The translations under genes were made by a program, and so were the position numbers. A DNA stretch of 39,284 bases, taken from Crocosphaera sp. Lineage in GTDB: Bacteria; Cyanobacteriota; Cyanobacteriia; Cyanobacteriales; Microcystaceae. The notes under the pieces were generated by a model. The model made no database searches. It was not told where the DNA came from and worked only from the letters and a program-made list of their open reading frames with translations. How positions within the stretch are numbered: the stretch's first letter is position 1; each line of letters begins with the position of its first letter. Positions 30,362 to 32,015 of the stretch are shown in pieces. The stretch covers positions 1 to 39,284 of the forward strand of contig JASJBX010000022.1 in assembly GCA_030066295.1 (NCBI GenBank), read 5' to 3'.

Positions 30362-30539
30362 TAAGTCTCTATGATCCTCCTATTAAGGCTATTATCGGGA
30401 TAATTTACAACTCTACCATTTTTACTGGCATAGAAATAGGCTTCAAAAAATTACTCCATAAGTTAAATAATATAAAGAAAACTTGAATTTTTGTCAATTT
30501 AATTATTATTATGGAGTCTTATACTTAAATCTTAAGAGA

Positions 30540-32015
30540 ATGATCTTTCCTATCTTAAGAAAGCAGTTATCTTATGGACAAGTTGCGGTTATTGTTGGCC
30601 GATTAGTTATTATTGAGTTGCTATTATTAGCTTTTGGTATTTTAGCAGTTCGTCAAACTTATTACACTTATCACGCTCATTCTATCCCCTCATCACAAAG
30701 CTTAAATACTGACAGTTTATTTCCCACAGTTCCTTTAGCTTTATCTTACGCTATTAGGAATAGTAATACGGAACAGGTAAACCAAATTTTAACTAGCAAT
30801 TATCAAGGTTTACAAGGATTAATTATTACGGACTTAGAAGGAAAAGAAATTACTCATTATTCTCATCAAAATTCAAGAAATAGAAGTGATTGGCTCAAAA
30901 ATATATCTAGTGAAACCCTGAATAGTTATCCCCATCATTTACTTGTCGACCCCTTTTCATCCATAGCCAAAAGTTATTATGCGGACAAGAAAACAGGAAA
31001 AGATTTTGCTCAGACTTTAATTGACAAAAAATTGATTCTTGCTCGAGTTTATTATATTCAGGATTTTTCAGACAGTTTTTCACAAGAATTATTACAATGG
31101 CTTGAAAATCCTTTTCAAAATAATACTCGTTTTCCCATTTATAATTTAACCCTATTATCTTTTATAATTGGGGGTTTATTTATCTGGAGTTTTAGCGAAT
31201 GTTTCTTAAGCTATCGGCTTTTAACCCTCAAAGAAAACGAACAATTATCACAGAGACTAAGCTGGGAAAAAAAATTATTAAAACAAGAAATTTTAATTCT
31301 AGAATTCTGGCAAGAAAAGTCTCAAGATTTAGAAGAAATAACAGAAGAAAAAAATCACTTATTATTACAGTTAGAAGAGCAACAAAACTTAGAACAGGAA
31401 AGTAAAAAACAAATACAATTTCTGAGAGAAAAGATTGAACTTTTCACGACTCAAAATAAGGAAAACAAAGAAAAAATAAACGACTTACAAGAATTACAAT
31501 TATCGAACAAAAAATCCATTCAACAACGAGAAGAAACGATAAAAAGAGAATTTGAAAGACAAATAAATTTAATTAAATTAGAATCACAGTATGCGTTTGA
31601 AGAAGCACAAAAGATAGAACAAGAAAAAGAAAAATTAATGTTACAAAATAAAGCCCTTCGAGAACATTTAAACTCGGAAATTGAAAAAAATAAATATTTA
31701 GAATTTGTCCTAGAAAGCTACAAAGAAGAAAATAAAGTTATGATTGATGAATCAGAAACTAATGACAATAATTATTCATCAATTCCGACATCCTATTTAA
31801 CGAATATTCCTAGTAGAAAAGCCATTAAATCTCTTCAAAAATTAGGATTTCAGAAAGATAGACATAAGGGAGATCATTATATTCTCAAAAAAACAGCAAC
31901 AAATACGATCACTGTTCCCATTCCCCATCCTCGACAAGAACTTAATCCTCTCACACTCAAAAGTATTTTACTACAAACTAACACCTCTCTAGAAGATTTT
32001 TTAAACAATTTATAG
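30540..32015 (+). CDS. Two-TM coiled-coil membrane protein with C-terminal HicA-like domain
   Basis: 491 residues from ATG 30540 (an upstream TTG at 30483 is a weaker start). TM1 is at about 15-38 (GRLVIIELLLLAFGILAVRQ). A periplasmic domain (about 39-200) follows, with a region like a small sensor (ITDLEGKEITHYSHQ). TM2 is at about 202-222. Then comes a long charged coiled coil (about 232-400) rich in E, K and Q. The last about 70 residues (420-491) match HicA/YcfA double-stranded-RNA-binding toxins: IPSRKAIKSLQKLGF, KGDHYILKK with the catalytic His446 (GDH in place of GSH), then ITVPIPHP, and LKSILLQTNTSLEDFLNNL. HicA proteins are usually 60-80 residue mRNA interferases held by HicB. No hicB is nearby. 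The signal-to-domain function is inference. Confidence 0.78.
   Translation: MIFPILRKQLSYGQVAVIVGRLVIIELLLLAFGILAVRQTYYTYHAHSIPSSQSLNTDSLFPTVPLALSYAIRNSNTEQVNQILTSNYQGLQGLIITDLEGKEITHYSHQNSRNRSDWLKNISSETLNSYPHHLLVDPFSSIAKSYYADKKTGKDFAQTLIDKKLILARVYYIQDFSDSFSQELLQWLENPFQNNTRFPIYNLTLLSFIIGGLFIWSFSECFLSYRLLTLKENEQLSQRLSWEKKLLKQEILILEFWQEKSQDLEEITEEKNHLLLQLEEQQNLEQESKKQIQFLREKIELFTTQNKENKEKINDLQELQLSNKKSIQQREETIKREFERQINLIKLESQYAFEEAQKIEQEKEKLMLQNKALREHLNSEIEKNKYLEFVLESYKEENKVMIDESETNDNNYSSIPTSYLTNIPSRKAIKSLQKLGFQKDRHKGDHYILKKTATNTITVPIPHPRQELNPLTLKSILLQTNTSLEDFLNNL

Follow-up and report, generated by a model that had tools for sequence, protein, structure and literature searches.

Ire1, a stress receptor of eukaryotes, has a sensor on its outer, lumenal side, a transmembrane (TM) helix, and an RNase inside. 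Among bacterial toxins, the HicA proteins of type II hicAB modules are free proteins of about 60-85 aa, encoded next to hicB; in Burkholderia HicA, Gly22 and His24 are required for toxicity, and an S23A substitution is tolerated without any reduction of toxicity (PMC3969222). Two further systems bear on the present one, namely (i) ToxM, a membrane-bound RelE-fold toxin (Gerdes 2025, PMC11980606), and (ii) the class 14 "SMC-HicA" proteins, which are described as coils with a C-terminal HicA domain, some of them with NERD (Gerdes 2024, PMC10865869).

Here, we examined a gene in a window of 39,284 nucleotides (the whole stretch of Crocosphaera sp. DNA that was analysed; contig JASJBX010000022.1, assembly GCA_030066295.1). 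An initial annotation had read its product as two TM helices, a periplasmic domain, a long coiled coil and a C-terminal HicA-like domain, with no hicB nearby. We consider it on balance probable, judging from its sequence, that this protein is a signal-controlled, membrane-tethered RNase, namely a one-component receptor that uses a toxin domain for its output.

Architecture and HicA domain of the protein

The proposed order of domains was borne out by hydropathy and charge, the heptad pattern and Pfam matches (Table 1). An in-frame TTG lies at 30483, upstream of the ATG, which is the start common to the orthologues. Both hydrophobic helices have positive charge on their cytoplasmic flanks, which places the middle part of the protein outside and predicts its topology in vivo. 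The coil, 39% of whose residues are charged, keeps a heptad pattern. It is shorter by 77 aa, or exactly 11 heptads, than the coil of most orthologues (567/568 aa), and the heptad register is preserved across this loss, for which the chance alone is 1 in 7.

Table 1. Features of the receptor gene and its product (positions in the window; boundaries of TM, periplasmic and coil regions are predicted)
Feature	Position	Strand	Description
Whole CDS	30540..32015	+	TM - periplasmic domain - TM - coiled coil - HicA; 491 aa, ATG start, stop codon included
TM helix 1	30576..30650	+	residues about 13-37; cytoplasmic N-terminus with R7/K8; from hydropathy and charge
Periplasmic sensor domain (putative)	30660..31133	+	residues about 41-198, ~158 aa; fastest-evolving part
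TM helix 2	31134..31205	+	residues about 199-222, continuing into the coil; from hydropathy and charge, low-confidence model
Coiled coil	31206..31754	+	residues about 223-405, ~180 residues; no Gly, no Pro
Approximate site of in-frame deletion relative to same-genus orthologues	31276..31296	+	231 nt, at a short direct repeat
HicA domain	31770..32012	+	residues 411-491 (Pfam match 426-480); best-conserved part of the protein
G444-D445-H446	31869..31877	+	equivalent to Gly22-Ser23-His24 of Burkholderia HicA

The C-terminal domain matched HicA_toxin (PF07927) with 51.2 bits (cut-off 27; E 1.4e-13), far above chance. Moreover, when modelled with AlphaFold2 (pLDDT 82.6), residues 411-491 took the alpha-beta-beta-beta-alpha, dsRBD-like fold of HicA, and solved HicA structures ranked first when the model was compared with known structures: Z scores were 11.4 for 1whz, 8.3 for 6g26, 8.2 for 5yrz, 7.3 for both 6hpb and 4p78, and 5.3 for 4c26, falling to 3.4 after the solved HicA entries. 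The profile search and the structure prediction that the initial annotation had proposed thus both returned HicA, and together they rule out a chance motif. His446, which it had singled out, indeed aligns with the catalytic histidine of the family. This histidine is present in all 32 HicA-bearing rows examined, which were picked with a free-HicA profile rather than by the motif and which amount to 28 entries, four genus proteins having been counted twice. The loop glycine preceding it (G444) is also kept across lineages, and the serine of the GSH loop is an aspartate in the window genus. A search of viral contigs for HicA homologues that could have deepened the alignment found none; a tree of the HicA domain has too few columns to separate a single fusion from several.

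The periplasmic domain had no Pfam family match and no sequence relative in the PDB, and its model, built on a two-sequence alignment, reached a pLDDT of 44. Because this model is useless, a sensing role for the domain is read from the architecture and from the kinase-bearing relatives described below.

The gene was present in all nine genus genomes searched (the window genome and eight others). Among these nine, mean pairwise identity was 84-93% in the HicA domain versus 44-63% in the periplasmic domain, and median dN/dS (NG86) was 0.085 for HicA, 0.14 for the coil, and 0.43 for the periplasmic domain. HicA, with the lowest dN/dS of all regions, is therefore the most constrained part of the protein.

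Both flanking genes, ftrV (FeThRed_A) and a BPD_transp_2 permease gene, lie on the strand opposite to the receptor gene. In the window genus and in the group that we label f9, the neighbours of the receptor gene are stable. No same-strand ORF of at least 60 aa directly adjoins the receptor gene, where a ToxM-ToxR-type arrangement would have a cotranscribed RHH/HTH antitoxin gene upstream. An SBP_bac_1 gene is found nearby, with ftrV between the two. We had at first supposed that every family member has a solute-binding protein beside it, but dropped this view, as it is true for the NERD members and one kinase member, and not for the HicA members. PADLOC assigned no family to the receptor. No phage relative was found, and a phage origin was rejected on that ground.

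We found no HicB (PF15919) match on the whole contig and no PF05534 match anywhere in the genome; a hicB overlooked near the gene is thereby ruled out, as the annotation had stated. Besides the receptor gene, this genome contains eight hicA genes, each of them small, and a HicB-like gene directly adjoins six of these; its HicB-like matches number 12. Small free hicA genes of this genome at two loci, L006 (G000:C27:12946) and L008 (G000:C36:10524), have no adjacent PF15919 match. Furthermore, in 22 further genomes with HicA receptors, no HicB lay near the receptor among the matches listed, whereas free hicA genes mostly have hicB as a neighbour. In its size (491 aa) and its lack of an adjoining hicB, the window gene thus departs from a type II hicAB module.

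Relatives of the putative receptor and their output domains

By its sequence, the protein is a member of a cyanobacterial receptor family in which the sensor and coil are constant and the C-terminal output is exchanged. Peptide patterns run against genome contigs matched one locus only, and whole-genome profile searches were therefore used instead. With an N-terminal profile (TM-periplasmic-TM), relatives were found in at least 16 of the 386 genomes sampled across the phylum, in at least 48 of the 391 sampled within the order, and in at least 22 genera, these counts being lower bounds in that few candidates were scored per genome. Members with other outputs generally match the N-terminal profiles (A2/A3) with E values no higher than 1e-50, and Y44, P65, L68, T97, P138, and R169 in the sensor part are invariant in the family.

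Members of the window genus, f9/g22, f2/g15 and g209, G032, and G446/G456 end in HicA. NERD is found in f25 (PF08378, E 1e-9 to 1e-12), with the D...ExK nuclease motif kept in five of five copies, and Gp49/HigB-type ends match at E 5e-15 and 3e-10. DUF2325-like ends match at E 7e-8 to 4e-3, under the curated cut-off; we know of no nuclease activity for DUF2325. Two genomes (G186 and G132) have members ending in a HATPase_c kinase, the end of another member (L145) is divergent, matches no Pfam family and may be HicA-like, and several members stop in the coil without an output domain. On a tree of the N-terminal part, whose deep forks are weak, the eight output labels require a minimum of 11 changes.

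Some members depart from the common plan. The protein at L085:8167-10170 has a domain of about 100 aa beyond its coil that matches no Pfam family, and in a CHAT-nSTAND1 protein (L089:4677-7736) the same TM-periplasmic sensor forms the C-terminus. Two proteins (L093:207-1166 and L094:7435-8511) are TM-coil-HicA, with the periplasmic domain absent; together with the output-less members, they imply that sensing is not the whole function in all members. In G370, a stop codon splits the receptor gene in its sensor part (L075:7690-9642), as a broken copy or a sequencing error.

At six loci (L076, L078, L143, L147, L163, and L164), a NERD receptor gene is followed by a gene for a PhnD-like periplasmic binding protein, several of which have a C-terminal staphylococcal-nuclease (SNase) domain. 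This order suggests that the PhnD-like protein is a ligand-binding partner of NERD-type receptors.

Plasmids carry members of several kinds. NERD members were found on Nostoc and Calothrix plasmids. On Synechococcus elongatus plasmid pIITB8_1 (L161:1344-10666), a receptor has a RelE/ParE-type end (PF05016, E 3.6e-4, just under the cut-off), whose best PDB sequence match is the RelE-family toxin Rv2866 in 3g5o (E 0.0018). Its neighbours are genes for an N6 DNA methylase, Swt1-HEPN, HEPN, a GIY-YIG nuclease and a DEAD-box helicase, and these surroundings are likely a defence cluster.

An Aulosira plasmid encodes a HATPase_c kinase receptor and, after a gap of 2 nt, a response regulator with a ParE-like C-terminus (PF05016, E 3.3e-4, under the cut-off; no PDB sequence match), and the G186 kinase member adjoins a homologous regulator, 52% identical to that of Aulosira. 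In all, a kinase receptor followed directly by a regulator with a probable ParE/RelE-like end occurs at these two unrelated loci (L080:5214-10537 and L162:4908-7342), with a sub-threshold Pfam match in one regulator and homology in the other. It is therefore likely, going by these matches, that the kinase version also ends in a toxin-type domain, via a response regulator. At L080, a kinase-PhnD fusion gene lies upstream of the receptor and regulator genes.

Proposed mechanism and alternative explanations

We propose that the periplasmic domain would sense a signal, perhaps a small molecule, or else a periplasmic binding protein or stress on the envelope. The resulting change would travel via TM helix 2 into the long coil, which probably forms a parallel dimer, and would alter how the C-terminal HicA domains are spaced or paired, or how accessible they are, so that the RNase would be switched on (or off) on the inner side of the membrane. 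It would presumably be the receptor, instead of a HicB antitoxin, that restrains the RNase. Dimerisation, RNase activity, the direction of switching, the signal and the RNA targets are all putative here. Because the kinase-bearing members use the same sensor plan, we infer that the output is controlled by a signal; control from outside also gains indirect support from the range of outputs (kinase, RelE/ParE, Gp49, NERD, and DUF2325) that the same sensor and coil carry in other cyanobacteria. The toxin-type outputs suggest that the response may act on RNA or DNA directly. More tentatively, and with somewhat less confidence than we place in the window protein, we see here a general class of cyanobacterial transmembrane receptors with toxin-type nuclease outputs (HicA, RelE/ParE, HigB/Gp49, and NERD), acting directly or via a kinase and a RelE-tailed regulator, in which toxin domains would be output modules of signal transduction and exert an Ire1-like control of RNA without antitoxins.

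The main rival to a membrane-tethered RNase is a HicA domain reused as a non-cutting RNA-binding module, which would tether RNA or ribosomes to the membrane. The dsRBD-like fold agrees with such a use, and a domain without an antitoxin is easiest to understand if it is harmless. However, the catalytic histidine and loop glycine are conserved across lineages beyond the needs of RNA binding, and the sister outputs are nuclease or toxin domains; although the exchange of the GSH-loop serine for aspartate in the window genus speaks for mere binding, S23A leaves the toxicity of Burkholderia HicA unreduced (PMC3969222). The strict conservation of the two active-site residues favours cutting, and we regard mere RNA binding as unlikely. 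A different question, compatible with a receptor-RNase mechanism, is whether the protein acts against phage by abortive infection triggered at the envelope, in which case the exchange of toxin outputs would be an arms-race pattern. The company of the Synechococcus plasmid member and the plasmid location of NERD members speak for this role, as do the proposal of HicA domains as defence effectors (PMC10865869) and the validation of one HicA system in defence (PMC13092281); the stable neighbours in the window genus and f9, the strong purifying selection in the window genus, and the lack of a PADLOC family or phage relative speak against it. A defence role is possible for the plasmid members and weaker for the window genus with its stable neighbours; for the receptor as a whole, we hold it to be somewhat unlikely.

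A further explanation is that an ordinary type II toxin happens to be fused to a membrane protein, and that a HicB encoded elsewhere neutralises it in trans. This could draw on the 12 HicB-like matches of the genome, but distant families share the fusion, the sensor also bears other outputs, no HicB is linked, and the HicA domain is not fast-evolving, all of which makes this explanation very improbable. The probability of an SMC-HicA fusion of class 14 acting on DNA is close to nil: the relatives' coils do match TIGR02168/TIGR02169, but weakly (best 25-30 bits against cut-offs of 567-729) and from the coil alone, and two TM helices and a periplasmic domain stand in place of the head. No SMC_N/ABC ATPase head was found in any member scanned, and this missing domain contradicts an SMC fusion, despite the likeness to the class 14 description.

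Comparison with known systems

If the receptor-RNase reading is correct, toxin RNase domains would be the working end of ordinary membrane receptors, beyond the addiction and defence modules controlled by antitoxins, and would offer a direct route from an outside signal to RNA cleavage without transcription factors. The family, in which one sensor is joined to HicA, RelE, NERD or a kinase, would offer ready comparisons for studying the signal detected and the restraint of the RNase by the coil. A literature search found no paper describing membrane receptors with exchanged toxin-type outputs, which is weak evidence of absence. New here would be that the protein is a membrane receptor and that toxin-type outputs are exchanged on a single sensor; a coil ending in HicA and a membrane-bound toxin were already known.

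The window domain shares its domain family (PF07927), fold, catalytic histidine and loop glycine with the free HicA of hicAB modules, whereas it forms the end of a 491-aa membrane protein, without hicB, in every genus genome searched. With class 14 as described (PMC10865869), the family shares the long coil and C-terminal HicA, and NERD occurs in both sets. In contrast to class 14, compared by that description, the family here lacks an SMC ATPase and has a membrane-receptor N-terminus, and HicA and NERD are alternatives, not companions. The class 14 proteins are possibly the same as, or overlap with, the receptor family, which suggests that listings of SMC-HicA fusions are worth re-reading. 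ToxM-ToxR (PMC11980606) likewise combines a cytoplasmic toxin-type RNase domain, a TM segment and a periplasmic domain, but in ToxM the BECR domain stands at the N-terminus and an antitoxin serves as its partner, whereas the receptor has the reversed order, a coil, HicA, and no antitoxin. Its plan of two TM helices, a periplasmic sensor and a coil is that of sensor histidine kinases, with HicA, not a kinase, as the output. Finally, the receptor would work like Ire1, with which it shares no homology and whose kinase domain it lacks.
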